DNA of 61,352 nucleotides, from IMG/VR virus record IMGVR_UViG_3300009370_000027, positions 1-61,352 of that record; one strand, written 5' to 3'. This stretch comes from a virus. Both the position numbers and the translations under genes were made by a program. Each line of letters opens with the position of its first letter. The first letter of the stretch is position 1. A model generated the notes under the pieces. That model had not been told where the DNA came from. It saw nothing but the letters and a program-made list of their open reading frames with translations, and did no database searches. Positions 17,001 through 56,336 of the stretch are shown piece after piece.

Positions 17001-20000
17001 CAGTCGTTTGCCCTCCTGCTCCCACATCCGCAGGCGGTGCCAACCCTGACATACCTTGAGACGAGAGGAGTGCAATAACATCATTGAGGGCAATTGGCCC
17101 ACCATCCGGACCCGTTATCCCCTGCCTATTCAGGTAATCCGCAAAGACGGGAGCATATGGAAGTAGCTGCTGCGCAAGTTCATCCCCAAGCTTTTCCTGG
17201 TCCGGAGTTCCGTAGTACTGCATCGCAGCACGCTGTGCATCGGGGTAGTACCTGGGAGCAATGTCTTCCCAGATATTTCCATAGTACTGGTAGTTCCTCT
17301 CAAGCTCTGCAAGCTCTTCTTCTGTGATAGTAGGATCATCACTCAGCGCCTCGAAATACGTGTAGGCATCAAATGCCTCCCCTTCCTCCCATAGATTTCT
17401 CGATATCGCGTCTTCACGAAGATATGTAAAGTAGTCATCTGCCTTGGTGAAGAGAGCTATCTCCTCATCACTTATATCTTCAAGCTCACCGACTTGAGGA
17501 TCTGCGAGTGACCAAAGGGCTCCAAAGGGAGATTGGCTTTCGTAGACATCAGATCCAAACATCCTTCCGGGCGCATAAAGTCCGTGACCGGCCATGGCAA
17601 AGGGATCGTTTATGTCCCCAACGCCAGAGACTCCGCCATAAGCGGATTCCAAATATTTACTGTCCTCGGGAGGAGGATCTTCGTCCCATTCCCCTGGTGC
17701 GGTAGGTCTTCTATTCCCCAGATTCTCAGTGGCTCTTTCGATTTCCGCCCAGGCTTCATCTGTAAGGCTGTAAGTTCCAGTAGCCTCATCGTAATGCTGA
17801 CTGTAAATCCAATCGATATAATCCGGGCTGTCCTGGTAGTAATCAAAGTCAGCTATCCCTTGTGATTCCGCCCAAGCAACCGCTTTTTCTTCATCCGTTT
17901 CTTCGTCTTCTTCCTCTTCTTCTGAAATACCATGTCGTATTTCATCAAGTCTCTCCCTCGTTCCAAACTCATCTCCAACAAGAACGGGTCTTCCATCATG
18001 GTCAACCTGAACGTTGGCATTCATGAAGTCCATGAACACTTCATCATCTACTATGAGCCCAGAATCTGTCTCTCCAATCCGTGCGAGCAAGTCATCTGTA
18101 ATTTCATTTATGAAATCTGAATCCAAGCCAAGGAATCTCAGCTTCTGCCTGAACTCATTGATGTGCCTTTCATTCGCTACGAGATCCCTCATCTCTACGT
18201 TTACGCCTGCATTTGCAAGCATATCTTCCAAGAAGTCCAATCTGGCCCAGTCTTCATCCTCCGTCCCACGATCAGGAACATCATCAATGACCTTCTCTTC
18301 TTCTTTAACTTCCCATCCTGTTATCTCCGACTCTCCTGTACCAGGAATCTCCTCAATGACTGGATCTAATTCATACGAACGCTTCGGTCCAGAACTTACT
18401 AGGTCGTACAGTGCATCTTTTGCGCTTTGATTGTAATCACCCAACTCATTCCATGTCGGGAGGCTGTCTACATCTAGAGGCTGACCTTCATTTCTTGGCA
18501 TTGGAAGTATATTATTAATGATGTCCCAGAATCTTGGATCATTCTTGAACGCAGCACCGATGCTATCTCCAAACCCCATCTGCTCTATGACTGCATCAAA
18601 TAGAATATCTAGAGTTGAAAACTGATCAGTATCGTAGGCGCTATCACGGGTTAGATCTTCGTAAGCCTTCCAGTCGTCAGGCGTCCACCCTTGTGTACCT
18701 GCATCAATCCAGTCCGATATCTTCTGCTGATTGATAAACAGATAGGAAGCCAATACGGAAGGATCAGTTTCAAACCCCTCAGTCATCACCCCCTTAAACT
18801 GAAGACCCTCATCGGGATCAGTAAAGATATCTAGAACATCTTGATACGTTGCGTCGAACTCAAGTTCTACAATCTTTTGAAAAAGTTCTGCAAGATTTGG
18901 ATAGTTACCAAGTATATTAGTCCTTGTACCCGGATCGGTTATGTCCAGTCCATGATTGAACGCAAAGACTTCCAGGAAGTTCTCAAGTGTAAAGTCACTC
19001 AATGCAGACAGAGAATAAACGCCAGTCTCTTCGTCGTATACATCCCCTACATCAAGATTCTCGATAGCAAAAGATCCACCCAGCGTGTCTGGATCAGAGC
19101 TTTGAATCCAAACTAGATCCTCTTCGCCCTCAACCTCGACTGCATCTACGCGAGCCTCCTCGCCTGGATAGGCAAAGTCTCCGGTGGTTCCATAGTCTCC
19201 AGTATCCGCATAGATTAGAGGACTATCTTGACCAGCCTCCTGGTACATCCGATCTATGAGTTCTCCATCTGTGATGTCCTCAGGAATTGCCGATATAGAT
19301 CGAAGCTGTTGTAGAAAATCTGTCTTCGCCGCAGGTGAAGGCTGTTCCTCATACAAGCCAATCAGATCTACCGCATTCATGCGGTCTCCGCCTACTCCCA
19401 TGGCCGCCATGCTGACATGATCTGCAAGTGTTTGAAGTTGGGTCCAGCCTTCCGAAACGCTCTCAAACCATTCTTCGTCATTCATTTCTATCGGAAGAAT
19501 TCCGACACCCGGCGCACCTCTGTGGTCTAGGTCTTCAATGAAGTCCTCTGCGGATTCTACGATGAGAGCATCTCTCTCTTCTTGGGTCGATGGATCAAAG
19601 GGCGGACCAGTGGTTACGTCTTCCTCAGTTACATCCCCGCCGACAATGACTTCATCGCCAGTTACATCTCCACTAACAAGGTCTTCAACGCCAGTTACAT
19701 CTCCACTAACAAGGTCTTCAACGCCAGTTACGTCTCCACCAACAAGGTCTTCATCGTCAACGAGAGGATCTTCTTGGAATACGCCAGTGGTATCACCCAT
19801 CACCCCACCTGGTTCATCAAGCGAACTTATGCCTTCTCCAACCTGTCTGGCTCCAGCCTCTTCATAGATGAGATCTATCAGTTCATCACCTGTCATACCG
19901 GGAGGTAATACGCTGGAAAATTCAAGAAGAGTATTTTCAATGAACCCATCAGGATCTCCAGACTGTTGAAAGTCACGAAGCAGAGTATGGGGATCAATGC

Positions 20001-22143
20001 GAACGCCTTCGGCAACCGAGAAGTAATCTGCAAGAGTTTCAGGCTGGATTAGTCCAGACTCTATGTCCTCAAACCAAATTTCGTCAGCAGTCGGAGGCTC
20101 TTCACCAGCCTCCTGATACATGAGATTTACTATTTCTTCATCTGTCATGGCCCCGAGATTTTGCTGACTATGGGTATTTCTTGACGCATATTCCCTCAAT
20201 GAGCCAATGAAGAACAGCAATGCCTCTTCCCGATTGTCATAACCAAGACTTGCAGCACCTCCATCCATCCATTCATTGAACGAGTTAAGCAACCACTGAG
20301 AGTCGTAACGTGTGCCTTCGGAAATAGAAATAATGTCCGCAAGCGTTTCAGGAACAATAGAACCATCTGAAATGCCTTGGAACCAAATTTCGTCATCAGT
20401 CATACCGGGACCGGGAGAATCTGTGTCTGCGAACGGAGGTTGGTCAACTTCATCAACTTCATCAATGATGGGCTCATCAACTTCAGCCCCGATGGGTTCA
20501 TCAACTTCATCAATGATGGGCTCATCAACTTCATCAACTATGGGTTCATCGACTTCATCAACTATGGGTTCATCAACTTCATCAATGATGGGTTCATCAA
20601 CTTCACCACCGATTACTTCGTCAACTTCGTCAACTATTACTCCACCACCTTCATCAACTATGACTTCCTCACCTTCATCAATGATGGACTCATCACCTTC
20701 ATCAATGGGGTCTCCAGTCGGGAGATCGGGAGGCTCTTCACCAGACTCCTGATACATAAGATTTAGTATTTCTTCATCTGTCGTTCCTTCAGGAACGAAC
20801 GAACGAAGCATCTCATAGAAGAATCCTTGATCTTCAAGAGACAAGAAATGACTAAGCAATTCCGAGGACGTAGTGCGACCAGTACCACCAAATGCATTCC
20901 TCGCTGCTGAAACATGATCCGCAAGCGTTTCAGGGAGAATGGAACCATCTGAAATGCCTTGAACCCAAATCTCCTCGTCAGTAAGTTCATCCTGTGTATC
21001 AGGATCGGTTTGCACATCTTGGGTCTGATCTATGGCTTCATACGTAACAGGGTCAACGAGTTGACCCAACTCACCAGTTTCAGGATTCACTTCATAAGTT
21101 TGATCTTCCCCGTTCGGTCCAGAACCCGGGACAATCGTGTATGCATTAGGTTCTGTAGGCCCCTCGCCTAAAGCAGTCAATGGAGCCGTTACGCCTTCAT
21201 CAGCAATGACTCCCTCACCGTCACTATCATCCGTTGGCGAGTGTTCCTCGTAATCAGTTATAACTTCAGGATCGGTTTGTTCAGCCCAACCCTCGGGCCT
21301 CCCAAAAGAACCAATGCCCATTTCATTTACAGAAAATTCATACTCCTCAGGATCAACATTGAACATATTGGAAGGACTGTACGTAAAACGTTCCTTCGCT
21401 AATTCGACAGCTTGGTTGTATCTATCTAGATCCCAAGTGCCGTCTTGGAGATTCTCATTTGCCCGATACAATGCACTATGGTAATCGTCCCATTCTCCTA
21501 CGATGCCCTCCATCGCACCCGACTTTCCGGCCATTGGATTGTAAGACCAATAGTTATCTATGTAGTCGCTGACATCCCTTTCCGACCATCCAGTAAAATC
21601 CATCTGATCCGGAGCGATTAGAGCATAATCACGCTCTTCCGCTCTCTCCATCAAGACTCCATAACTAGAAGGTAAATTTACGTTATCACCCCAACCAGGG
21701 AAGTCGGGAAGACCTTCGATGTATTCTATATAATCGAGCGGTGCATTTCGGAGGTCCCACATTCCTTCCGGAGTCGTTGCAAACTGGAGATCGTAAAAGC
21801 TTTCGGGTCTATCTTCGGTAGGCAAATACTCATGTGTGGAAACCTCAAACCCCGCCCAAGGATCGCTGGTTATATCCCCACTAATACCCCCTCTAGATCC
21901 CCAGAACTCTGCCTCCGGCGCGTACCCGCGAGACCAACTTGGCCTTCGGCCACCCCATATTTCGGAATCCGCAGCTTCATCTCTGTAAAGATGTTCAACA
22001 GGACTAGCCCCCCACGCAACTTCTTCTTCGACATCCGGCACGCCCTCAACATCCTCAACCATCTCCTCCATCTGCGGCCAACCGTCCTCTTCCACTTCAA
22101 AGTCTTCATTCGGGTCTTGAATGTCTACGATTCCATTCGACAT
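14071..22143 (-). CDS. Very large acidic repeat virion protein (2690 residues)
   Basis: AGGAG lies 7 bases before the ATG. The protein is strongly acidic. Four related modules of about 75-100 residues begin near residues 388, 581, 684 and 885; each opens with a form of EIWFQGISDGSIVPETLAD and closes with a form of DEEIVNLMYQEAGEEPP. Between them lie a DEVDEPI-type repeat tract (about 480-575) and GDVTGVEDLVS repeats (about 790-845). The middle (1300-2400) is aromatic and Asp/Gly-rich. The last 150 residues contain YQEGGMV and the conserved phage block HGEFVVPADVVAHLGDGNNENGA (from about 2634) followed by KLYGMMDRVR. That C-terminal block is common in virion proteins of short-tailed phages. 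I infer an internal or tail-associated structural protein; the repeats may bind calcium or act as a flexible stalk, which is not shown. Confidence 0.72.
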   Translation of the reverse strand: MSNGIVDIQDPNEDFEVEEDGWPQMEEMVEDVEGVPDVEEEVAWGASPVEHLYRDEAADSEIWGGRRPSWSRGYAPEAEFWGSRGGISGDITSDPWAGFEVSTHEYLPTEDRPESFYDLQFATTPEGMWDLRNAPLDYIEYIEGLPDFPGWGDNVNLPSSYGVLMERAEERDYALIAPDQMDFTGWSERDVSDYIDNYWSYNPMAGKSGAMEGIVGEWDDYHSALYRANENLQDGTWDLDRYNQAVELAKERFTYSPSNMFNVDPEEYEFSVNEMGIGSFGRPEGWAEQTDPEVITDYEEHSPTDDSDGEGVIADEGVTAPLTALGEGPTEPNAYTIVPGSGPNGEDQTYEVNPETGELGQLVDPVTYEAIDQTQDVQTDPDTQDELTDEEIWVQGISDGSILPETLADHVSAARNAFGGTGRTTSSELLSHFLSLEDQGFFYEMLRSFVPEGTTDEEILNLMYQESGEEPPDLPTGDPIDEGDESIIDEGEEVIVDEGGGVIVDEVDEVIGGEVDEPIIDEVDEPIVDEVDEPIVDEVDEPIIDEVDEPIGAEVDEPIIDEVDEVDQPPFADTDSPGPGMTDDEIWFQGISDGSIVPETLADIISISEGTRYDSQWLLNSFNEWMDGGAASLGYDNREEALLFFIGSLREYASRNTHSQQNLGAMTDEEIVNLMYQEAGEEPPTADEIWFEDIESGLIQPETLADYFSVAEGVRIDPHTLLRDFQQSGDPDGFIENTLLEFSSVLPPGMTGDELIDLIYEEAGARQVGEGISSLDEPGGVMGDTTGVFQEDPLVDDEDLVGGDVTGVEDLVSGDVTGVEDLVSGDVTGDEVIVGGDVTEEDVTTGPPFDPSTQEERDALIVESAEDFIEDLDHRGAPGVGILPIEMNDEEWFESVSEGWTQLQTLADHVSMAAMGVGGDRMNAVDLIGLYEEQPSPAAKTDFLQQLRSISAIPEDITDGELIDRMYQEAGQDSPLIYADTGDYGTTGDFAYPGEEARVDAVEVEGEEDLVWIQSSDPDTLGGSFAIENLDVGDVYDEETGVYSLSALSDFTLENFLEVFAFNHGLDITDPGTRTNILGNYPNLAELFQKIVELEFDATYQDVLDIFTDPDEGLQFKGVMTEGFETDPSVLASYLFINQQKISDWIDAGTQGWTPDDWKAYEDLTRDSAYDTDQFSTLDILFDAVIEQMGFGDSIGAAFKNDPRFWDIINNILPMPRNEGQPLDVDSLPTWNELGDYNQSAKDALYDLVSSGPKRSYELDPVIEEIPGTGESEITGWEVKEEEKVIDDVPDRGTEDEDWARLDFLEDMLANAGVNVEMRDLVANERHINEFRQKLRFLGLDSDFINEITDDLLARIGETDSGLIVDDEVFMDFMNANVQVDHDGRPVLVGDEFGTRERLDEIRHGISEEEEEDEETDEEKAVAWAESQGIADFDYYQDSPDYIDWIYSQHYDEATGTYSLTDEAWAEIERATENLGNRRPTAPGEWDEDPPPEDSKYLESAYGGVSGVGDINDPFAMAGHGLYAPGRMFGSDVYESQSPFGALWSLADPQVGELEDISDEEIALFTKADDYFTYLREDAISRNLWEEGEAFDAYTYFEALSDDPTITEEELAELERNYQYYGNIWEDIAPRYYPDAQRAAMQYYGTPDQEKLGDELAQQLLPYAPVFADYLNRQGITGPDGGPIALNDVIALLSSQGMSGLAPPADVGAGGQTTGGGGTSGIGSDVSVNQGTAAGSASIDSTAVTTGAVGVGSTQATEDVDAQAAAENATQETVEASAAATNNANQAVNFNPGLPTGYSTMFTDPGEFAGTNTSRRKAADSIFDSAKKSSGFGGRPGISSASDIYVPNFVMDAQAASTGSVSPLSWWLGRSSDDKNQIKAWVASDHRGMGYKDSNEALEENVYRNADGDLYRVEDEITNFYLPTWAAELAYSSIDQGGSSMQEEVFGEYIDYVPTYSWWQSIGAERRAELQERMINHSGKESTKLVAIRKMEVDRDKHGKDVAFVSSVKKFNKSSGELVPEWETLEELDKEINTELKAEPVRFTDFVKWMIDEGGIDPLSWVNGTPGIGSSDDHPHLTISSDRAVFGLEQLIPTTNPRRPYITATGGWGWRILGQNWEDSWYTGVGGRGLDHSPVIDRTKLPEGGWHSPFVNTVHYEIPAGQERTHMYGAAGAVSRTMLNYFLKHWDSWVGEENSRKVPWPVGVSESDARSVSINRNVDHLTKTEGRRGHTSGRSSTPSIPGKLNLRPGVELFQPQFETVSVIDDFGDIGKSDQGLFEADLDEFFSHLFARDPETNEYLANEINMIDFEGEYGDQPESVWDYSGRVLQTDGGLRPQGRPLYYDDQSSKQGMWAILSSYMPYYEGYLQSYDIASRDLDTPSFEVYMNSGDPGKRPEFDPTDILGSEAAALAFQQNAKVSYGDFVHLEGLMPDWSGGRIVRPNVDYFNDTVFLDGFRWAAPGGEENEFIAGQGVPRPMFYYGDMTDRLDGPTPLGQFSTAQSSGPVIPGHSSGGIVDINYQEGGMVEEEISEDISEDISPLSSQEELEDLVSQDPLLQELMGALMEDSPEVNRLIKIAVDRYGEAIVKALSRLVQQNVGRRSSYIPGPDPGMADTKRVKLTGPEGLPSLGSEEAAISHGEFVVPADVVAHLGDGNNENGAEKLYGMMDRVRETKTGNREQPGEIVEEEVLPV
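19622..19760 (-). repeat. Tandem coding repeat (GDVTGVEDLVS units)
   Basis: Near-identical units of about 33 bases repeat inside the 2690-residue gene; on the plus strand they read as forms of CCAGTTACATCTCC followed by A(C)TAACAAGGTCTTC. They encode GDVTGVEDLVSGDVT-type peptide repeats, with at least three clear copies and degenerate flanking ones. DNA identity is higher than needed for protein identity, which suggests recent expansion by slippage or recombination. Confidence 0.85.
20430..20700 (-). repeat. Tandem coding repeat (DEVDEPI units)
   Basis: On the plus strand, units such as GGTTCATCAACTTCATCAA and their variants recur about every 24 bases. They encode at least six DEVDEPI(I/V) octapeptide repeats flanked by related DEGDE and DEGEEVI units. 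The tract forms a highly acidic linker between the first and second large modules of the 2690-residue virion protein. Copy number is likely to vary between related phages. Confidence 0.88.
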
Positions 22144-41876: not shown

Positions 41877-43385
41877 CTAGTAGTATGAAACCGCTTGTCG
41901 CGGCTCAAAGTCATCATCATCGTCCGACTTCAACGGAAGGAATCCACCTTGCCTGAATCGGATCAATGCCTGTGTTGACGAGTCCACCAAGTCATCATGC
42001 GCCGCAGCCCCTGGGAAACCAGCGAACTGCTCAATTACTTCTTCTGCGAAACGCCTTCGTGGAGCCCAGACGATTCCAGAGGAGAACAAGTCTGCGACAG
42101 CATTGACTCTCGCCACCTTGTCGTTCCCCCGAGATGGAGTGTATTCCGAAACCGGAATCCCCATAGCTCGTAACTCGAAAATCAAAGGACTCCCCGCTGC
42201 CTTCGCTTCCACGATAAACGCATCCGGCTGCCACTCGTGATACTCCTCGTAGGCTCGCTTCTTCAGTTCCGGAAATTCCATGCGCCTCTGAAATGCATTC
42301 AAGAGGATGATGTTCGTCTGCGTCTCACCGGCTGCGCCGCTCTCGTTATTAAAGACACCCCATGTAGTGCAGGCAGAGTAATCTGCTCTTTGCGTTTTCA
42401 GGAACGCAGTGTCCCAGGACTGGATGATAAATTCACAGGGCGGGGGATCTACCTGCTCCCACGTTCTCCACCAGCTTCGCTTGATGATCGCTGCTTCGTC
42501 TGCCGTAGGATCTTGTTGATACTGGGCAGACCATTTCGCAGACGGAATCGCGGCTCTGATTTTTTCCAGTTCCTCAAGGGACCAGAACTCAGGCCACAGC
42601 GAATGGCCGGTATCCGGCAGGATGGCCGGGAACTCGATGACTTCCCATTCATCACTACCAGTCCGTTCGGCCATCGCCTGGATTAACTGCCCGGTCAGGT
42701 CGCGCATAGACCAACGGGTCATTACCAAGCAGATGGCTCCTCCGGGTTGGAGACGTTGCCGGGGGCCAGAGGTGTACCACTCGTAAACACGGTCGAAGAC
42801 AGAGGCATCACCCAACTGTGCTTCTTGTTCCGAGTGGGGATCGTCAATGATAAACAGATCCGCACCTTTGCCCGTTACGGCACCGCCCACACCAATGGCG
42901 AAGTATTCTCCGCCATGGTTGGTATTCCACCGGCCTGCGGCCTTGGAGTCGGAGCGAAGGGAAACTCCGGGGAATACCTTTTGGAACTCATCGGAACCGA
43001 CAAGGTTCCGAACCTTTCTCCCGAAGCCCACAGACAGTTCTGCCGTGTGAGCGGTTTGAATAACCTTCTTGTCTGGATACTTGCCAAGGAACCATGCGGG
43101 CAAGATGTAAGAAGCGAACTCAGACTTTGTATGCCGAGGTGGCATATTGATGATCAGCCGCTTCAAGTCACCTTTGACGATTCGCTCAAAGGCTTCTGCC
43201 ATGATCTTGTGATGGCTACCCTGAATGAATGCAGGCCATACCAGCTTCACGAAATCAAGATAATCGTCTCTGGACTTCTTTCTCGACCGAAGATCATCGA
43301 GTCGATCCAGGATATCCAGAACATCCCGTAATTCATCCGGAGGCATCTGGTTCAGTTTCGGGATCATTTGTCCGATACTGGACAC
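41877..43385 (-). CDS. Terminase large subunit
   Basis: I place the start at a GTG (43385) with a perfect AGGAGG 6 bases upstream; the next ATG is at 43367. The product has 502 residues. The ATPase part shows a Walker A-like PPRHTKS (82-88), a Walker B FIIDDPH (Asp181, Asp182) and a downstream motif ICLVMTRWSMRDL. The nuclease part shows QSWDTAF (Asp325), IVEAKAAG (Glu393) and AHDDLVDS (Asp464, Asp465), the acidic triad that binds metal in RNase-H-like terminase nucleases. It drives DNA packaging into the prohead with the portal, whose gene follows at 41869. Confidence 0.94.
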   Translation of the reverse strand: MSSIGQMIPKLNQMPPDELRDVLDILDRLDDLRSRKKSRDDYLDFVKLVWPAFIQGSHHKIMAEAFERIVKGDLKRLIINMPPRHTKSEFASYILPAWFLGKYPDKKVIQTAHTAELSVGFGRKVRNLVGSDEFQKVFPGVSLRSDSKAAGRWNTNHGGEYFAIGVGGAVTGKGADLFIIDDPHSEQEAQLGDASVFDRVYEWYTSGPRQRLQPGGAICLVMTRWSMRDLTGQLIQAMAERTGSDEWEVIEFPAILPDTGHSLWPEFWSLEELEKIRAAIPSAKWSAQYQQDPTADEAAIIKRSWWRTWEQVDPPPCEFIIQSWDTAFLKTQRADYSACTTWGVFNNESGAAGETQTNIILLNAFQRRMEFPELKKRAYEEYHEWQPDAFIVEAKAAGSPLIFELRAMGIPVSEYTPSRGNDKVARVNAVADLFSSGIVWAPRRRFAEEVIEQFAGFPGAAAHDDLVDSSTQALIRFRQGGFLPLKSDDDDDFEPRQAVSYY

Positions 43386-43470
43386 CGATATCCTCCTGAA
43401 TAGAAAAGCGGCATAACCCCCTTCGGCCACACCGCTGCAAGCGTATTGATACACCCACTTGACAAATCCG

Positions 43471-44615: not shown

Positions 44616-45579
44616 AACGGTGTAACCCTACCGCTCCGCGGTTCAGTGCGCCTCGTTTTTCTAGTGACGTATCTATGTGTCAACGCTGTGACGTGTATGC
44701 CTAACCATGGCAACGCAATGTTAGGTAGGGGTGACACATCTCTGCCTACACACCTAAGCGTATGGGTTTCCTACACAATACTGTGATCTGCCTCTAGCTG
44801 GCCTGTACTGAATAGGAGGCTTCAGGCAGCCCTAAGTGCCTGTTTTTAAAGGGGAAATGGCATAGAGTGGCTATAAGTGGCTATAAGAGTATGGGAGCCC
44901 TAGAATCCCTGTGTTCGCGGCCCGCCAAATAGGCGGGCACCAGCCCTCCCGGAACCAGGGTTGAACGTGTAGTGGACCGCAGACCCAGAACTACACCAGT
45001 CCCCGGGAACGACTCTTCAAAGTGTCGGGGGACGAAGGCGCAGTCGAAGAAAGGGGCGGCGTCTACCGTTGCGCGCAAGTGTGTCGCCCGCGTGAACGTC
45101 CAACGGTTATGAGCACACGCGCCGCAATGCGGCGCACGTGAAGCGGGGACGCGCCCCGCCTTTCCAGCAACAGTCATCTACGTAGCGGCCACTGCCAACG
45201 CACGGCTAACCGCTTACGACCACGCACCACGCTAGACGCATACCCAACACGCGGCCCTAACCGCTTGACGTGTTGGTAGTAGCTCTACCGTGTTCCGGTG
45301 ACCGCTGGTTTAGAAGACAACGACACAGCGAAGGGACGGCGACGGTGTGAACGTCAAGCAAGCCCGCGACCCACTGCTGTGTCGGATGCATGAATCAAAC
45401 AACTGGCAAGAGAACAGCTACGACCACACACACGTCACGGGATAGGTGACAACGTAGTGTGGCGTTGTCTGCTTGCGCAGTTTGTTTGATGCATGAAATG
45501 GATACGCAGTAAGTCCTAGCCTTATGCGCAGACGGTCCACGTATCTGTTTCATGCATCGGATAGACTGATGCGTCACAG
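44616..45579. promoter_or_regulatory. Hairpin-rich divergent non-coding region (about 1 kb)
   Basis: No convincing gene is seen between TerS and the first early gene. The stretch holds a nested inverted repeat at 44675-44739 (outer arms ATGTGTCA and TGACACAT, inner CCTAAC and GTTAGG), a GGCTATAA repeat near 44874, hairpins at 44920-44938 (GCCCGCC/GGCGGGC), 45119-45135 (GCGCCGC/GCGGCGC) and 45143-45159 (GCGGGG/CCCCGC), and the direct repeat CTAACCGCTT at about 45208 and 45263. It separates the leftward late block from the rightward early block, so both promoters and possibly the origin or packaging site should be here. TTGACA near 44681 on the minus strand lacks a good -10. Confidence 0.5.
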
Positions 45580-45609
45580 CACGCAAAGACGTGCAATGAA
45601 AGGTTAGAC
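45387..45609 (+). promoter_or_regulatory. Structured leader, composite stem element copy 1, with hairpin D1
   Basis: Upstream of the 45610 gene lie overlapping stems: arms ATCAAACAA (45394-45402) with TTGTTTGAT (45482-45490); then GATGCATGAAA...ATACG (45488-45506) with CGTAT...TTTCATGCATC (45541-45559), which shares the bases GAT with the first stem; then GCATCGG with CTGATGC (45555-45573, G-U tolerated), which shares GCATC with the second. Hairpin D1 (GCACG/CGTGC, 45580-45595) follows, then a purine-rich AATGAAAGG and ATG at 45610. The first two stems cannot form fully at the same time. Related chains occur at 45994-46094 and 47223-47321. Confidence 0.72.
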
Positions 45610-45987
45610 ATGACACGCAATGACATCCCGACGAGTTACGAAGAGGCAATGAAGTTCCTGGGCGACAAGGACTCCCGCACGGTGTGCAATAACACCACGG
45701 TCGAACGGTGCGAGGCAAGTACACGCCCGCAGCATTACAAGCGGGAGTTCCCGTTTGTGGTGACAATCCGTTTGCATGGATTCCCGGTAGTGGAGTTCTT
45801 TGAAGACGGCACGATCCGACTGCAAGCTGGCAAGTGGAAGACCGTGACAACGAAGGACCGAATGAATCGGTGCCTTGGTAGTCGCGGTCGCGTGTACCAG
45901 TACAACCGTGAATGGTTCTATTCGGATGGGATCGCGGACCAAAACGTGAACACCGACATTCCGTTCCATGACGGCATGACCGTTTAG
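45610..45987 (+). CDS. Early-region conserved phage protein
   Basis: This 125-residue protein, MTRNDIPTSYEEAMKFLGDK, has core segments FVVTIRLHGFPVVEFFEDGTIRLQAG, KTVTTKDRMNRCLG and VYQYNREWFYSDG. The pattern (LHG.pVV.ff.DGti.L..G...TvTTkdRmN) resembles small proteins found in many phages of unknown role. It is the first gene after the hairpin-rich divergent region and begins 14 bases after hairpin D1, with a purine-rich spacer. A stem-loop (45994-46019) follows its stop codon. Confidence 0.68.
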   Translation: MTRNDIPTSYEEAMKFLGDKDSRTVCNNTTVERCEASTRPQHYKREFPFVVTIRLHGFPVVEFFEDGTIRLQAGKWKTVTTKDRMNRCLGSRGRVYQYNREWFYSDGIADQNVNTDIPFHDGMTV

Positions 45988-45993
45988 TTCCAC

Positions 45994-46094
45994 GCATCAA
46001 ACGTTCCAACGTTTGATGCAATGAATACGTAACAACGTGTTGCGTATTCATTGCATCGGATGATCGGTGCAATGCAACGCACGCAACGACGTGC
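45994..46094 (+). promoter_or_regulatory. Composite stem element copy 2 with hairpin D2
   Basis: Six bases after the preceding stop lies stem A: GCATCAAACGTT (45994-46005) with AACGTTTGATGC (46008-46019), 12 pairs and a 2-base loop. Stem B pairs GATGCAATGAATACG (46015-46029) with CGTATTCATTGCATC (46043-46057), 15 pairs; it reuses GATGC of stem A, so A and B compete. Stem C (46053-46070, GCATCG with CGGTGC) reuses GCATC of B. Hairpin D2 (46079-46094, GCACG/CGTGC) then precedes the purine-rich spacer and the ATG at 46109. Confidence 0.75.
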
Positions 46095-46108
46095 AAAGGA
46101 TGAAAGCA

Positions 46109-47671: not shown

Positions 47672-47735
47672 GCAATGGAATGCGCAGTGCATTCCATTGC
47701 AGTGAATGAATGAACGAACGCACGCAAAGTCGTGC
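47672..47735 (+). promoter_or_regulatory. Stem-loop plus leader hairpin D6
   Basis: Five bases after the stop codon at 47666 lies a perfect stem: GCAATGGAATGC (47672-47683) with GCATTCCATTGC (47689-47700). A short AATGAATGAACGAAC linker then leads to hairpin D6, GCACG-CAAAGT-CGTGC (47720-47735), 17 bases before the ATG at 47753. Stems B and C of the longer element are missing or replaced here. Confidence 0.72.
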
Positions 47736-47752
47736 AAAGGAAAGAAAAGAAA

Positions 47753-48823
47753 ATGCCTGAAAGCATTATCAAGAACACTCAGACAGATGTGATTGAACGC
47801 ACCGCAACGTGGGTAGGTGAGCAGAACAAATCTGTTCTTATCACCGGACCTTCGGGTGGTGGCAAGTCGCACATGGTTTCTCACGCCATCGCTCAGCTTC
47901 TTGCTGAGCGCTACCACCCCGAACTTGAAAAGGTGAACGTCGCTATCGACTGTCGCCTCTCGTATCGGGATTCGGTTGACCTTCGTGGCATTCCCTGTGC
48001 GGACATGGAAACGGGAACCACTCGATGGCTTACGCCTGACGAGTTCCCGCGCGGCAATGAGCCCAAGATCTTTTTCATTGACGAGATCGGGCAAGGGCTT
48101 CCCCCTGCACAGAACGCTGCAATGCAGTTGGTTCTTGACCGGAGGCTTGGCGAGTACGTTGTTCCACCGAACACGTACATCATTGCCGCATCCAATCGCG
48201 AGTGCGATGGATCGTTCATTCGCAAGATGAGTTCCGCGTTGCGTCAACGCTTTGCGTTGATCGAACTGTCCCCGTCCGCAAAGGACTGGCGGGCATGGGC
48301 GATTGCCAATGGCATTGATCGTCGCCTTGTTCTCGCAACGGGACTCTTCCCTGACCTCATTGAGAAGTGGGATGGGAATCTCCCTGGTCAGCAGTCCAAT
48401 TCGCGGGAGTTGACTTCACTGCATGGGATTATCAATTCCAAATACGTGAAGACTGATGCCGCAACGATGCTTGCGTATGCAAGCGACGTGATTGGCGAGG
48501 ACGCAGCGATCAAGGTTGCTCCGTTCATTGCTGACTACGATGGACAGGTGAAGCCGAGCGATGTCTTCAAGGACCCCAGTGGGTGTGACCTCCCGAGGTC
48601 GGATCGTTTTGACAATACGATTTCACTCACCATTCAACTGTGTCGCAAGGCAACGATGAAGAACACCGATGCGGTTCTCACTTACGTGGATCGTTTGAAC
48701 AGTGAGTACCGTGCGATTGTCGCATCGGGGTTCATGTCTTTGAACAAAGAAGCAAAGGGTGACGGTTACCTCTCCAAGGCGTGGGGTAAGTGGATCTCCG
48801 ACAACCAAGACCTCGTAAGTTAA
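47753..48823 (+). CDS. AAA ATPase of MoxR type, first gene of MoxR/helical/VWA trio
   Basis: The ATG at 47753 (MPESIIKNTQ) follows hairpin D6; an upstream GTG at 47732 lies inside that hairpin and is less likely. The product has 356 residues: Walker A GPSGGGKS (32-39), Walker B IFFIDEI (Asp110, Glu111), sensor 1 Asn148 (AASN), and Arg164/Arg166 of ALRQRF as probable arginine finger. This is the MoxR/AAA_5 family, which forms hexameric rings that remodel partner proteins. The partner is probably the metallopeptidase-VWA protein encoded two genes later, as in MoxR-VWA modules of bacteria. A stem-loop with arms AATGAACGG and CCGTTCATT follows its stop. Confidence 0.82.
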   Translation: MPESIIKNTQTDVIERTATWVGEQNKSVLITGPSGGGKSHMVSHAIAQLLAERYHPELEKVNVAIDCRLSYRDSVDLRGIPCADMETGTTRWLTPDEFPRGNEPKIFFIDEIGQGLPPAQNAAMQLVLDRRLGEYVVPPNTYIIAASNRECDGSFIRKMSSALRQRFALIELSPSAKDWRAWAIANGIDRRLVLATGLFPDLIEKWDGNLPGQQSNSRELTSLHGIINSKYVKTDAATMLAYASDVIGEDAAIKVAPFIADYDGQVKPSDVFKDPSGCDLPRSDRFDNTISLTIQLCRKATMKNTDAVLTYVDRLNSEYRAIVASGFMSLNKEAKGDGYLSKAWGKWISDNQDLVS

Positions 48824-49817: not shown

Positions 49818-49842
49818 GGGGGCGCGCACGGTGTGCGCCCCC
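49818..49842 (+). promoter_or_regulatory. GC-rich intercistronic hairpin before the VWA gene
   Basis: Left arm GGGGGCGCGCA (49818-49828) pairs with TGTGCGCCCCC (49832-49842), 11 pairs with one G-U, about 14 bases after the stop at 49804. The following TCCCCTTCC has no clear U-run, so this is probably a processing or pausing hairpin, although weak termination is possible. Confidence 0.6.
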
Positions 49843-49877
49843 TCCCCTTCCACTCTTTCAAAATGAAAGCAAAGAAA

Positions 49878-51380
49878 ATGTCTATTGAAAACGAACTAGC
49901 CAAAGTGGCTAAGAAAATCGAAGACGTGCAGGCATGGCTTGCAGATCCGAAGAACTTGGATGAACAGATGGATAGACTGCATGATGTACGTCGTCACGTC
50001 GTCATGGATCACCCCTTCCTTGGAAGCAAGGCAATGCAAGCGGACTTTGAGTTCTCTACCGAGATCCCTACCGCTGCAACGGATGGGCGCAAGCTTCTGT
50101 TCAATCCAATGTTCGTTGCGCTGTTGAAATTCTCGTTCGTTCTGTTCACGGTCGTTCATGAGTACCTCCATGTAGTGCTGGGCCATCACGTCAGACGTGG
50201 TAATCGCAATGCCAAGCTGTGGAACATCGCTTGCGATCATGTCGTGAACAGAATCATTAAGCAGTTCATGCGAATTCCGGATGACGTTTATTGCGATGAA
50301 CGTTTCGATGACTTCAGCGAAGAGCAGATCTATTCGATCCTCGCTGAAGAATCCAAGCAAGAACCCGAGGACGATGGCCGCATCGTTGAGCATTGGCCCA
50401 CTGGCGAATCAGGTAAGGAAGAAGACGAAGGCGAGGGTGGAAGCGGTGAAGGTGACGAAGCTGATGACGAAGCTGATGACGAAGCTGATGACGAAGCTGG
50501 TGATGAAGGTGCGGGTGATGATGAAGGTGATGATGAAGGTGCGGGTGGTTGCAAGGCAGACGATGAAGGTGGCGACGAAGCTGCCGATGGCGAAGGCGAT
50601 GATGACAATGGAGGTGGAGGAACCTACGAACTGCCCGACGCAAAAGACTGGGGCGAAGTGGAGGACATGAAGAACGAAGACGGTTCCGACATGAGTGACA
50701 AAGAAAAGTCAGATGAACGTGTGAAACAGGTGATCGAAAGCGAGAACGCACGACGCATCGGCGACAAGATGGGGCGTGGATCCGGGGGTTCCGGGTTCGC
50801 TGACAAGGTTGGACGTGCAGTGAAGAAGTCAACGTACTCATGGATCGATGAGATCCGCGAGTTCATAAGCGACTCGTTCCAAGGCGACCCGACTTCAACG
50901 TGGGATCGTGGACACCGAAGCCATCTTGCCAACGGGATTTACCTCCCTGGCTACAAGATGGAGGGTGTTCGTGATGCACTCGTTGTTGCGGATTGTTCCG
51001 GATCGATGTGGCATGGACTGTTCACTCACGCACTGGAAGAAACTGCGAAGGTAATCACTGATGCAAACGCATTGTCGGTAGACTTTCTGCAATTCGATGA
51101 CGTTGTTTACGAGCCGATCCGTACCTTTGAGTACGGTGCAGAGTTCGACGTTGAAACCCGAGAGGGTGCAGGCGGCACCGTCTTCCAGCCTGTGCTGGAT
51201 TGGATTGATAAGTCTGAAAAGGAATACGACTTCATCATTGCGATCACTGACATGGGAATCTGTGACTTCCACACAATCAAAGCTCCCGATGCTCCCATCA
51301 TTTGGTGCGACGTATTCGGAGGCACCTACCAGAAGGCACCGTTTGGAAAGACGGTGGTTGTTACGCGAGGCAACGAATGA
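49878..51380 (+). CDS. Metallopeptidase-VWA protein (DUF2201-like), MoxR partner
   Basis: The start is uncertain: ATG 49878 (MSIENELAKV, 500 residues) or ATG 49863 five codons earlier. Residues about 60-160 carry HEYLHVVLGHH (94-104), a HExxH zinc-protease motif with a downstream His. A long acidic, repetitive linker follows (about 165-290: EADDEADDEAD and GDDEGAGG). The C-terminal part is a VWA domain with a MIDAS: DCSGS (Asp372, Ser374, Ser376), a GGTVFQPVLDW Thr loop and IAITDMGI. This matches the DUF2201-type proteins that pair with MoxR ATPases. The 3' end overlaps the ribbon-helix-helix gene (ATGA). Confidence 0.8.
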   Translation: MSIENELAKVAKKIEDVQAWLADPKNLDEQMDRLHDVRRHVVMDHPFLGSKAMQADFEFSTEIPTAATDGRKLLFNPMFVALLKFSFVLFTVVHEYLHVVLGHHVRRGNRNAKLWNIACDHVVNRIIKQFMRIPDDVYCDERFDDFSEEQIYSILAEESKQEPEDDGRIVEHWPTGESGKEEDEGEGGSGEGDEADDEADDEADDEAGDEGAGDDEGDDEGAGGCKADDEGGDEAADGEGDDDNGGGGTYELPDAKDWGEVEDMKNEDGSDMSDKEKSDERVKQVIESENARRIGDKMGRGSGGSGFADKVGRAVKKSTYSWIDEIREFISDSFQGDPTSTWDRGHRSHLANGIYLPGYKMEGVRDALVVADCSGSMWHGLFTHALEETAKVITDANALSVDFLQFDDVVYEPIRTFEYGAEFDVETREGAGGTVFQPVLDWIDKSEKEYDFIIAITDMGICDFHTIKAPDAPIIWCDVFGGTYQKAPFGKTVVVTRGNE

Positions 51381-51914: not shown

Positions 51915-52067
51915 ATGATCGAAGTGATCGGTGAACTTCTACTCTTGGTTCTGTTCTTTGGCCTTGGCCACGAGTTCGCAATGATTACCGGACGAAAGCG
52001 CGGGAGGTCTGCGCTTTCAAACGATGCAGAAACAATCGCAAGAGCGAGAAAGGAAAGGAAAGAATGA
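51915..52067 (+). CDS. Small membrane protein
   Basis: This 50-residue protein has a strong Shine-Dalgarno (GGAGGTG, 4 bases before the ATG). One membrane segment (about 5-18, IGELLLLVLFFGLG) is followed by a basic tail (TGRKRGRSALSND, then ARARKERKE). Its stop codon overlaps the next start (ATGA), which links it to the secreted Cys-rich protein. The basic tail would stay in the cytoplasm (positive-inside rule). Function unknown. Confidence 0.6.
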   Translation: MIEVIGELLLLVLFFGLGHEFAMITGRKRGRSALSNDAETIARARKERKE

Positions 52068-52285
52068 CGCGGATACAACATAAATGGATTGTCATCACAG
52101 CAATCGCTGTCGTGGTGGCAGCAATCTTCGTCGCAAGCAGTGAAGCGGAGTGTTCACTATGCCCGCCGACTCGTTGCTTCGACTCAAGTGTGTGTGCCCC
52201 TGGGTGTGCGTGCTTGACACCGAGCGATGAAAGCCTGGGCGTGTGTATCAGTCTTTCTAATAAATATAATGCAGGAACAAATTAA
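52064..52285 (+). CDS. Secreted Cys-rich miniprotein with cystine-knot-like spacing
   Basis: This 73-residue protein has AAGGAAAGGA upstream and overlaps the previous gene by 4 bases. Residues 1-28 form a signal peptide or membrane anchor (HKWIVITAIAVVVAAIFVA) with a probable signal peptidase I site after SEA (29). The mature part has seven Cys: 30, 33, 38, 44, 48, 50 and 61. From Cys33 the spacing is 4-5-3-1-10; the inner 5-3-1 spacing equals that of squash-type trypsin inhibitor knottins (6-5-3-1-5). A short polar tail follows (SLSNKYNAGTN). A periplasmic protease inhibitor or envelope peptide is possible. Disulfide pattern and function are unproved. Confidence 0.6.
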   Translation: MTRIQHKWIVITAIAVVVAAIFVASSEAECSLCPPTRCFDSSVCAPGCACLTPSDESLGVCISLSNKYNAGTN

Positions 52286-52287
52286 GT

Positions 52288-52423
52288 AGGGCGACCGGGC
52301 AACCTCCATGAAGTGAGCGCCCCGGCGTGCCGGCAAACTTCAAGTTCGATCCGGTGCTTGAAGTTCATAGGGGTCCAACCCTACGGACGGGCGGGTGAAA
52401 GGCCCGCACCTTTTTTATCAACC
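52288..52423 (+). ncRNA. Structured untranslated region with terminal hairpin and U-run
   Basis: The stretch after the Cys-rich gene holds several consecutive stems: GGGCG with CGCCC (52289-52322 region), CCGGC with GCCGG (52323-52334), AACTTCAAG with CTTGAAGTT (52337-52366, 9 pairs), TAGGG with CCCTA (52369-52384), and GCGGG with CCCGC (52391-52407) followed by ACC and TTTTTT (52411-52416). I see no gene. This may be an independent small RNA, a riboswitch-like leader of the 52454 gene, or a termination region. It matched no RNA family that I know. Confidence 0.5.
52389..52416 (+). terminator. Probable intrinsic terminator
   Basis: GCGGG (52391-52395) and CCCGC (52403-52407) form a short GC stem with a 7-base loop, then ACC and six T's (52411-52416). 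The stem is short and 3 bases from the U-run, so efficiency may be moderate. Confidence 0.65.
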
Positions 52424-53791: not shown

Positions 53792-53811
53792 CACTGTGAT
53801 ATGTTGGGGTG

Positions 53812-54033
53812 ATGACCGACAAGCATTACAATGCCAAGGTGTCCTCGTTCGTTAGGGCGTCGGGTGACGAACTAGCGGGGGGTACGAGGGCACAGAAAAA
53901 GGCGGCGGGGTTTTCCCCGTCGCCTTTTTTTTATGCCTGCTGTCCGAACTGCGACACGCAGATGGAGGACATTCATTGCAAGAGAAAATGCCCCCGCTGT
54001 TTTTATTTTGAAGACTGTTCCAATCTCATTTGA
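53812..54033 (+). CDS. Zinc-ribbon protein with a terminator inside its frame
   Basis: The ATG at 53812 (MTDKHYNAKVSSFVRASGDE) has GGGGTG just upstream; a GTG sits one codon earlier. The C-terminal half is a zinc ribbon: CCPNC in FYACCPNCDTQMEDIHC and CPRC in KRKCPRCFYFEDC, with an extra Cys pair. The middle (TRAQKKAAGFSPSPFFYA) is coded by a perfect terminator hairpin and T-run (53901-53932). Without the hairpin the zinc ribbon would have no good start codon in that frame, so translation through the hairpin is needed. The stop overlaps the convergent gene at 54026-54529 by 8 bases. Confidence 0.5.
   Translation: MTDKHYNAKVSSFVRASGDELAGGTRAQKKAAGFSPSPFFYACCPNCDTQMEDIHCKRKCPRCFYFEDCSNLI
53896..53932. 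terminator. Strong bidirectional intrinsic terminator
   Basis: GGCGGCGGGG (53901-53910) and CCCCGTCGCC (53915-53924) form a 10-pair stem with a 4-base loop; eight T's follow (53925-53932) and five A's precede it. It can terminate rightward transcription after 53791 and leftward read-through. It lies inside the 53812-54033 reading frame. Confidence 0.88.
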
Positions 54034-54529
54034 AACTTCGCGGATCGCGGATCCCCGCCGTCCCAAAATATCCTACCAATGCATTTAAACCACGACGAAT
54101 TAGTGACAAAGATTTGACGCTAGGTCTTACGTTCCTGGTGACCACAATGATTGTCGCATCCTGTACGTCCTTGGGTTCCCGAGCCAGAATCCGATACGCG
54201 CCCGATGCCACCATGATCCTTGAAGAGAGTGACCGCTCCGCATCACGCAGCGTGCCGAACGAGACTGCGCTTGGATCGCATGATCTCGGTGCGCCACCCG
54301 AACGCACAAGCACATCGAGAAAGCACTCTCCTGCGGAATGCTGCGGAGCCGTGACCTTTCTTTCTAGAAACAGAATGTCAAGAGAAGTCTGGTCAAGCAC
54401 CCTCGCACGTTGCATGAGCCCACGATAATCCAAGGCTTCAGAAACAACGGAGTGCTTGTCCCGTAGCTCGTCCGTTCCCTTCTCCATGTTGGGAGAGAAG
54501 TGATCAGAACGGGATGTCGTCATCGTCAT
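54026..54529 (-). CDS. Helical protein of unknown function, convergent with the zinc-ribbon gene
   Basis: This 167-residue protein; start at ATG 54529 (MTMTTSRSDHFSP) with GAAGGTAG just upstream, overlapping the primase-helicase end by 26 bases. The segment YRGLMQRARVLDQTSLDILFLERK...QHSAGECFLDVLVRSGG recalls DUF6456-type regulatory proteins of phages ('AGe.f...'), but the match is weak. A helical C-terminus follows (VKSLSLIRRGLNALVGYFG). A role in replication control is possible; unassigned. Confidence 0.58.
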   Translation of the reverse strand: MTMTTSRSDHFSPNMEKGTDELRDKHSVVSEALDYRGLMQRARVLDQTSLDILFLERKVTAPQHSAGECFLDVLVRSGGAPRSCDPSAVSFGTLRDAERSLSSRIMVASGAYRILAREPKDVQDATIIVVTRNVRPSVKSLSLIRRGLNALVGYFGTAGIRDPRSFK

Positions 54530-56336
54530 CTACCTTCGGATCCAACTCCATCTCTTGCTGCGCCTCTTCAGGTTCCGGGTAGTCCCGCTCCTCTTGGCGC
54601 TCCCATTCCTCATCTCCCGCAGACCCTCCCTCTTCTACCTTCTGCCAGTCGATGTCATCGAGAATCGAAGTGTCACCCATGCGAGAGGTGAAACGGCCAG
54701 ACGCAAGGTTCCAATGCAATGCTGCGATACCCGGCTTGCCGTACCAAGAGAACCGGACTTTGTGGACGTGTACGTCTGTTTCAAATTCATCGCCACGTTC
54801 CAATGCAATCAAGTAGGTTGCCCTATTGAACCAGTGCGCTGACCCACTAACTGAGTACGGACCAATCGCACCTTCCATGCCCGACGCCTTCGTCGGATGA
54901 GCCACGACAATGCAGAGTGAATCGTTCTCCAATGCCCACACCTGAAGCTGTGCGAGCAATGTGTTCACACGATTCGTTTCTTCTGCGGCTCCACCGTTCT
55001 GTGAAACGTAATTCCATGGATCAATGATAAGACCGAAGCAACCCCTGGGCTTGAGCCTTGCGAGGCAAGCATCTGCACGATCCAGTATCGAACCGATGCT
55101 TGTGCCTGCTTCCGCCGGGAGGAACAAAAAGTTTTCATCCACCCATTCACGGGCATCACGATACTCGTCTTCGTCCGCAAGCACTTCGTCACCAATGATT
55201 GCGGCGCGTGCGCGCTTGGCTGCGAGCTTTGAAACGTGTAGTTCCCCGTTGTTCTCAGGACTGAACACTCCCCATTTCCAACCTGCATTTTCAGAAAGCG
55301 AAACCATGATCTGGTCAACGAGTTCCGACTTACCTGAACCCGGCACGCCAGTCACTACTGCCAACCCCGGATGCCATGTAATCAGCTTGTCCAATGCATC
55401 GATGCCGACGCTGGCACCTTGGCTGAACCCATCCTTGCGTAGCGTGTCAATGACAGGGAAGAATTCCCGTGCCCGAGTGATGCCAGACATGGAGGGGTGC
55501 GTGTTCGTCAGCACACTTCGCAAAGCATCGGGACCAAAGCGAACCAAGATGTCATTGATGTCCTTGCAACCCGCCGGATACTTGACGGTGTGCGCACGCT
55601 TGCGTCCAACCAAATCAACGAGGGCTTCAGTTGCAGCCTCTCCCTTTTCGTCTGCGTCCATGCCAATGACAATGCGAGAGAAACAATTCAACTTTGCGTT
55701 GATCGCCTTCAATGCCTTCTTTGCCTGCGCACCAGTCGGTGCGCCATTGGGTACTGACACTGCATTGAACCCAAGATGCCTTGCGGATTCACAGTCAATC
55801 TCACCTTCGCAAATCACAAGACACTCGTCTGCGTAGTCCACCAACTCCATGCGGTACAGACCTGCGCCTCCACCCTTCACCTCCCATTGAACGAACTTCT
55901 CCCCGTCCTTGCGGTCACGTCCGATCCACTTGATGTTCTCATCTAGGCGGTACGGAAACCCAATAGCAGGGAGACGATCCCCTTCGTTGAAGTAACGGAC
56001 ACTCGACAGAAGATCGATGGATGCTGCGTCAATCCCTCGTTCCTTCAGGTAGTCCATGTCTTCCGAGCCGAGCGTTCCATACGAATCCCATTTGACCTTG
56101 CGTTCTGCCTCCGGCAGAACCTTACGTGCAACGTCACGCCAGACGTGACCCGATACGCCACAGTGATTGCAATAATAGACAGCTTGGTCACCGTCATACG
56201 CCACAGCAAGAACTTCCTTCTTGCGTTTTGGTGCAGTGCTTCGATCTTCCGAACACCCAGGACAGGTTAAATAGACACGTCCGCTAACGATTGCCTTTGG
56301 TGAAGTATAAATGTGTTCTTGAAATTCGCTTTCCAT
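54504..56336 (-). CDS. Primase-helicase (T7 gp4-like) with SSB-like acidic tail
   Basis: This 610-residue protein. N-terminal zinc-binding: Cys25/Cys28 (CPGC) and Cys56/Cys59 (CNHCG). Toprim: CEGEID (Glu177, Asp181) and MDAD (Asp227, Asp229). A RecA-like helicase follows: Walker A GVPGSGKS (330-337), Walker B GLIIDPWN (Asp439), and VVAHPTK. The protein thus primes and unwinds DNA at the fork, as T7 gp4 does. It ends with DDDDDIPF, the same type of tail as single-stranded DNA-binding proteins. A GAGGGAAGAC lies before the ATG. Upstream (56349-56376) stand the AATGCATTA and GTTAAACG elements. It lies in a leftward island among rightward early genes. Confidence 0.9.
   Translation of the reverse strand: MESEFQEHIYTSPKAIVSGRVYLTCPGCSEDRSTAPKRKKEVLAVAYDGDQAVYYCNHCGVSGHVWRDVARKVLPEAERKVKWDSYGTLGSEDMDYLKERGIDAASIDLLSSVRYFNEGDRLPAIGFPYRLDENIKWIGRDRKDGEKFVQWEVKGGGAGLYRMELVDYADECLVICEGEIDCESARHLGFNAVSVPNGAPTGAQAKKALKAINAKLNCFSRIVIGMDADEKGEAATEALVDLVGRKRAHTVKYPAGCKDINDILVRFGPDALRSVLTNTHPSMSGITRAREFFPVIDTLRKDGFSQGASVGIDALDKLITWHPGLAVVTGVPGSGKSELVDQIMVSLSENAGWKWGVFSPENNGELHVSKLAAKRARAAIIGDEVLADEDEYRDAREWVDENFLFLPAEAGTSIGSILDRADACLARLKPRGCFGLIIDPWNYVSQNGGAAEETNRVNTLLAQLQVWALENDSLCIVVAHPTKASGMEGAIGPYSVSGSAHWFNRATYLIALERGDEFETDVHVHKVRFSWYGKPGIAALHWNLASGRFTSRMGDTSILDDIDWQKVEEGGSAGDEEWERQEERDYPEPEEAQQEMELDPKVDDDDDIPF

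Follow-up and report, generated by a model that had tools for sequence, protein, structure and literature searches.

The stretch of viral DNA analysed here (IMG/VR record IMGVR_UViG_3300009370_000027, a linear virus record of 61 kb, taken over its full 61,352 nucleotides and called the window below) carries a small gene, P0001, which is the last of a co-directional run that starts with an AAA ATPase (Table 1). Its translation, MTRIQHKWIVITAIAVVVAAIFVASSEAECSLCPPTRCFDSSVCAPGCACLTPSDESLGVCISLSNKYNAGTN, opens with the features of a Sec signal peptide (MTRIQHKWIVITAIAVVVAAIFVASSEA), i.e. a basic n-region, a 15-residue stretch with a mean hydropathy of 3.2 and a cleavage site between SEA and EC, and contains seven cysteines (Cys) at positions 30, 33, 38, 44, 48, 50 and 61, with gaps of 2-4-5-3-1-10. 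A first-pass annotation had described a secreted, disulfide-rich miniprotein with knottin-like spacing; its Cys count and spacing (seven Cys, 4-5-3-1-10 from Cys33) are exact, and the description is supported by the signal-peptide features and the Cys gaps. The translational coupling to the small membrane protein gene immediately upstream, which it had also proposed, is supported by an ATGA overlap. A purine-rich ribosome-binding site, GAAAGGAAAGGAAAGA, lies ahead of the start. Judged from the sequence, the predicted mature part of 45 residues falls within the ~30-50 residues of secreted knottins, and the six ordered Cys of the core, with their short C4-x-C5 and with loops in the known range, agree with that class as well.

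P0001 is convincingly a gene, since a Cys frame beyond chance is combined with a signal peptide, a ribosome-binding site and translational coupling. At the window's own Cys frequency, a frame of six Cys whose last gap is 8-12 should arise ~4.5e-9 times per residue (a chance of ~5e-4 to 1e-3 within the window), and it occurred once in 3.35 million six-frame residues from other, mostly related phage loci, where it lay in a Cys-rich frame. The probability that the open reading frame (ORF) is no gene, and owes its Cys frame to chance, is practically negligible: the ORF is small and without a close homologue, but it has a ribosome-binding site and operon geometry, and its relatives share the seven Cys plus a signal peptide.

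Single-sequence searches with P0001 (its own record, viral contigs, phages, plasmids, PDB, Pfam and PHROGs) found no relative, and matches in cyanophages, running antisense to head genes, were rejected as chance. The gene was not found in 50 records whose TerL or VWA protein links them to the window (a subset of which was also searched with a profile), nor in G010, which has the same AAA-VWA-primase order. A first motif scan of viral contigs, requiring only C-x4-C-x-D-x3-C-x2-G-C-x-C, gave 35 stretches, two of which (L156 and L167) are short ORFs with a signal peptide and with the first and last Cys that the pattern had not required; an alignment-based scan picked the same two again, and a second motif scan added L318. 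Most matches of the first scan and nearly all of the second, as well as 120 stretches of a further scan, were runs of Cys in low-complexity sequence, matches in a wrong frame or long proteins made of repeats. L171 was dropped as an alternative frame, and the weak profile matches L440, L452, L453, L454 and L464 were dropped after inspection. Pattern-independent profile searches of whole genomes, sampled around a metagenome-assembled genome (MAG) titled Myxococcales, yielded the bacterial members L441, L442, L444, L445, L450 and L451, which brings the relatives with all seven Cys to nine (three unrelated IMG/VR phages and six bacterial genomes). A tenth and more distant relative, L455, came from a profile search of a genome sampled around an Acidobacteria MAG and has the six-Cys core only, being the only member in which a Cys (the first) is missing. 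In Pseudomonadota-type samples (398 genomes with alignment A2, 269 with A5) and in a Desulfobacterota-type sample (297 genomes with A2) no convincing member was found, only part of the first-look candidates having been scored.

The spread over phages is sporadic: the records of L156, L167 and L318 have almost no proteins in common, either among themselves or with the window, and range in G+C content from 0.46 to 0.65. Phage genes recognised by PHROG beside the relatives are a weak portal match (L156, in G045), a terminase (L167, in G046), and a portal, exonuclease VIII, RecT and an amidase (L318, in G047), while at least two of the bacterial copies sit among ordinary, chromosomal-looking genes. 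Since unrelated phages and some bacteria carry relatives, these results suggest that bacteria and phages share a knottin family that has gone unrecognised.

In an alignment of eight members, with 20-36% identity to P0001, the only invariant columns are the seven Cys and one Gly (in the G-x-C at the end), and the seven Cys are also kept in L450 and its near-identical partner L451. A random loss of Cys among homologues, which had been named beforehand as an outcome that would refute the proposal, did therefore not occur in these members, and the more distant L455 lacks the first Cys only. The gaps in the family range from 2 to 4 for the first, followed by 4, 5, 2 to 4, 1 and 9 to 14. With the Cys held fixed, the other residues still stand out clearly from shuffles (z of 18 for ten members and of 10 for the four phage members), and the comparisons of P0001 with L167, L450 and L455 each lie below 1 in 5000 in shuffles; the agreement in D and G among three phage members is partly imposed by the scan pattern, a selection of which L450 and L455 are free. 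The first Cys is the one that can be lost, as L455 lacks it and still has the 4-5-3-1-10 spacing. The seven-Cys members are not lipoproteins by the usual rule, because a polar residue or Pro precedes the first Cys (E, Q, K, D, P, N or R, and never G, A or S); L455 alone has an Ala at that place, without an apparent lipobox. In most members an Ala stands two positions ahead of the first Cys.

The best-known knottins are inhibitors, toxins and drug scaffolds, and come from plants, arthropods, molluscs, sponges and some viruses of eukaryotes. The spacing of P0001 is identical to that of MCoCC-1 (a Momordica cochinchinensis inhibitor cystine knot, PDB 2knp), which reads CEGKQCGLFRSCGGGCRCWPTVTPGVGICSS in the profile alignment, shares its CGGGC with L318 and L441, and was found both by profile and by fold. 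MCoCC-1 is a plant seed peptide with six Cys, whereas members of the phage family carry one more Cys, three residues upstream; homology between the two is not established (E 0.47). The class B tick evasins (Evasin-3, PDB 6i31/6qjb), which are animal chemokine binders, resemble the family in the 3-1-10 C-terminal half of the aligned segment, but have six residues ahead of this part where the family has five. The Myxococcota-type multi-Cys proteins L252, L253, L254 and L260 have the same local C-x4-C-x5-C-x3-C-x-C spacing, for which they were partly selected by motif; unlike the family they are long multi-repeat proteins, with open frames of 330-410 residues and a last gap of ~six. Local units in such long Cys-repeat proteins (these four, from Myxococcota-titled MAGs, as well as L147 and L151 from viral contigs) run from 4-5-3-1-4 to 4-5-3-1-6, and the single-domain family could be related to such proteins, as its multi-domain forms, or derive from them.

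A search of PDB with the eight-member profile gave seven sequences at E <= 10, most of them knottins, led by evasin-3 (E 0.36 and 0.62), MCoCC-1 (0.47) and the MCh-1/MCo-52-2 peptides (3.1-3.6). AlphaFold models of P0001 and L318, built on four phage sequences, had a mean predicted local distance difference test score (pLDDT) of 72.6 (84 and 81 in residues 11-30) and 79.0, respectively. Strands predicted in the P0001 model (residues 9-10, 20-23 and 31-35) appear to be placed as in knottins, and those of L318 are similar. Foldseek matches of the L318 model were mostly knottins, with evasin-3 on top (prob 0.72, TMq 0.61) and EETI-II among the leaders that followed, while those of the P0001 model included squash inhibitors, spider toxins, MCoCC-1 and evasin-3 amid unrelated rows. 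Knottins are thus prominent among the fold matches, yet at E > 1 and Z < 4; VIA-align superposed EETI-II at Z 2.6-3.0 (30 residues, 1.6-1.9 Å), and its overall Z of 2-4 proves little by the tool's own note. The structure prediction proposed in the first-pass annotation therefore places both modelled members among knottins, albeit weakly. Spacing, profile and model agree on a knottin fold, each of them being weak, and the label "knottin" is accordingly a provisional one, resting on sequence and models. Pfam, PHROG and NCBIfam models gave no match to P0001 or the family above cut-off or at a convincing E-value.

The likeness to squash trypsin inhibitors (PF00299; EETI-II, CPTI-II) to which the first-pass annotation had pointed holds for the 5-3-1 core, but the full 4-5-3-1-10 is that of MCoCC-1, a non-squash knottin. 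Its further suggestion that P0001 might inhibit a periplasmic protease fared worse. Loop 1 is the reactive loop of squash inhibitors, and in the family it is too short (four residues in every member instead of six) and without a conserved P1 (PPTR, GNAY, PTFR, PSFT, RGNS, PSHP, GNLG, PAKP, HRGT and EGLR), which makes a canonical squash-type serine-protease inhibitor, blocking a periplasmic or secreted protease, very unlikely. The last loop differs as well (~ten residues instead of five), and P0001 matches neither the Squash nor the TIL model. On the other hand, the fold class is the same, squash inhibitors superpose on the fold models at ~1.6-1.9 Å over 30 residues, and two relatives weakly match inhibitor models below cut-off, i.e. 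an acidobacterial one Squash (E 0.025) and a phage one the TIL trypsin-inhibitor-like domain (PF01826; E 0.0029). The TIL domain itself, with ten Cys as against seven in the family, was rejected.

Because seven is an odd number, one Cys would stay unpaired in a P0001 monomer. This odd count, and CxC and CxxC pairs that could bind metal, would also suit a metal site or redox centre instead of a knot; such a role is nevertheless highly improbable, given that every member whose start is resolved has an apparent export signal, that the conserved spacing equals that of a solved knottin, and that no zinc-binding or redox family was matched.

Taken together, the P0001 gene is probably a phage moron for a Sec-exported cystine-knot miniprotein, a binder that would block a host or competitor protein outside the cytoplasm. 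A moron fits because this is a single gene in unrelated phages, is absent from the 50 window-related records, and in G045 lies between TerL and a putative small terminase gene but on the strand opposite to these neighbours, which is a typical moron position. The binder role is favoured because the frame is constant while the loops vary, as in knottin inhibitors and toxins, which diversify by varying the loops around one scaffold. Ribosomes would reach P0001 by coupled translation from the small membrane protein gene, as the ATGA overlap indicates, after which the Sec signal peptide would export the product and its cleavage would leave ~45 residues with a Cys at mature position 2. In the oxidising periplasm the six Cys would then form the knot 33-48, 38-50, 44-61 suggested by spacing and models, leaving the extra first Cys free for dimer formation or partner binding, and the rigid core would display variable loops that bind and block their extracytoplasmic target.

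Several observations weigh against this explanation. A strong promoter for P0001 was looked for and none was found, the number of Cys is odd, the models are of moderate confidence (pLDDT 73 and 79, predicted template modelling scores of 0.47-0.48, on four-sequence alignments), and every database or fold score is weak singly (no Foldseek E <= 0.001 and no Z >= 5).

The main rival, in which P0001 is a bacteriocin-like peptide that came from bacteria and is secreted for antimicrobial action or competition, is rather unlikely. Bacterial genomes do encode relatives, and at one acidobacterial locus a pair of knottin-like genes stands next to a redoxin and a large permease, but the mature net charge in the family runs from -4 to +5 without a cationic trend, no immunity gene was recognised, and some loci lack the membrane partner. 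At the acidobacterial locus (L456:8971-12976, minus strand; also L455) the two knottin-like genes have spacings of 4-5-3-1-6 and 4-5-3-1-10, the redoxin lies between them and a permease-like protein of 813 residues downstream, and the whole looks like a secreted-peptide cluster.

If the signal were not cleaved, the knottin could form a periplasmic head on the inner membrane, together with the small membrane protein, and serve in superinfection exclusion or envelope protection. The ATGA overlap that couples the window's P0001 to a membrane ORF, a similar layout in L167, the long hydrophobic segment of P0001 and the longer linker that an acidobacterial relative has after its own would all fit, but the c-regions are small and cleavable-looking, with the Ala before the first Cys in most members, and the membrane partner was seen in only two of six loci checked; such tethering is therefore unlikely. 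The guarding of the envelope that the first-pass annotation had also suggested is a guess. In L167 (7838-8087, minus strand) the window's ATGA overlap recurs between the miniprotein start and a membrane ORF of 25 residues. The membrane ORFs of L167 and the window have ELLxxVLFFG in common (shuffle p ~0.01), and the small upstream membrane protein may be a partner of the miniprotein, which is put forward as a lead only.

Beyond the moron itself, it is an evenly balanced question whether a native prokaryotic family of cystine-knot miniproteins exists in scattered Myxococcota-type and Acidobacteriota-type genomes, travels as morons in unrelated tailed phages, uses its extra conserved Cys to couple two copies or a partner, and serves phages as an inhibitor or a toxin, exported to work in the host envelope. 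The architecture as such is a known knottin type, and what is new here is the biological setting and the extra conserved Cys; in the open-paper literature (subscription papers and preprints lying outside the search) no knottin from a phage or bacterium was found. If true, a knottin family of both phages and bacteria would extend the fold to a realm new to it, make a bacterial export system a source of small, expressible knottins, and represent a new kind of phage effector acting outside the cytoplasm. The invariant seventh Cys raises the direct question of covalent pairing.

Table 1. Features of the P0001 locus and its surroundings (positions in the window).
Feature	Position	Strand	Remarks
AAA ATPase	47732..48823	+	Pfam, PHROG
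Unknown ORF of the co-directional run	from 48848		between the AAA ATPase and DUF2201/VWA genes
DUF2201 metallopeptidase/VWA-like protein	49833..51380	+	early operon; Pfam, PHROG
Small ORF of the co-directional run	51377		weak Arc-like match if read from 51302
Unknown ORF of the co-directional run	51525		before the small membrane protein gene
Small membrane protein gene	51915..52067	+	50 residues; ATGA overlap with the P0001 start
Ribosome-binding region	52048..52063	+	purine-rich; directly 5' of the P0001 start
Miniprotein gene P0001	52064..52285	+	73 residues; ORF translation, ribosome-binding site, start/stop geometry, relatives
Predicted Sec signal peptide	52064..52147	+	residues 1-28; hydropathy, charge; cleavage before E29-C30
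Predicted mature miniprotein	52148..52282	+	45 residues; translation, AlphaFold model
Codon of the extra first Cys (C30)	52151..52153	+	outside the knottin core
Six-Cys core, C33-x4-C38-x5-C44-x3-C48-x-C50-x10-C61	52160..52246	+	spacing as in MCoCC-1 (2knp)
Intrinsic-terminator-like hairpin and T run	52391..52417	+	3' of the P0001 gene
Primase/helicase	54504..56336	-	Pfam, PHROG

Terminator-like sites such as the one 3' of P0001 were found three times, against 1.2 expected in shuffles. The DUF2201/VWA protein resembles its counterpart in N4-like phages, and the window's terminase is ~53-57% identical to those of the Pelagibacter phages HTVC027P and HTVC023P and of phage DSL-LC04. This terminase (41877-43454, minus strand) has hundreds of IMG/VR relatives, the best 80 at ~70-77% identity; the HTVC023P/DSL-LC04-like group is large, but the P0001 gene is not common to it.

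Elsewhere in the window, an ORF of 74 residues (53809-54033, plus strand) has seven Cys arranged as CC..C / C...C..C, its product being closer to a cytosolic zinc ribbon than to a secreted protein, and an ORF of 233 residues with 21 Cys (45395-46096, minus strand), for which the loci searched gave no relative, is perhaps a spurious frame. Two giant ORFs of the late region (947-11167 and 14071-22143, minus strand; 3406 and 2690 residues), the closest relatives of which are 28-39% identical over partial coverage only, contain zero Cys.
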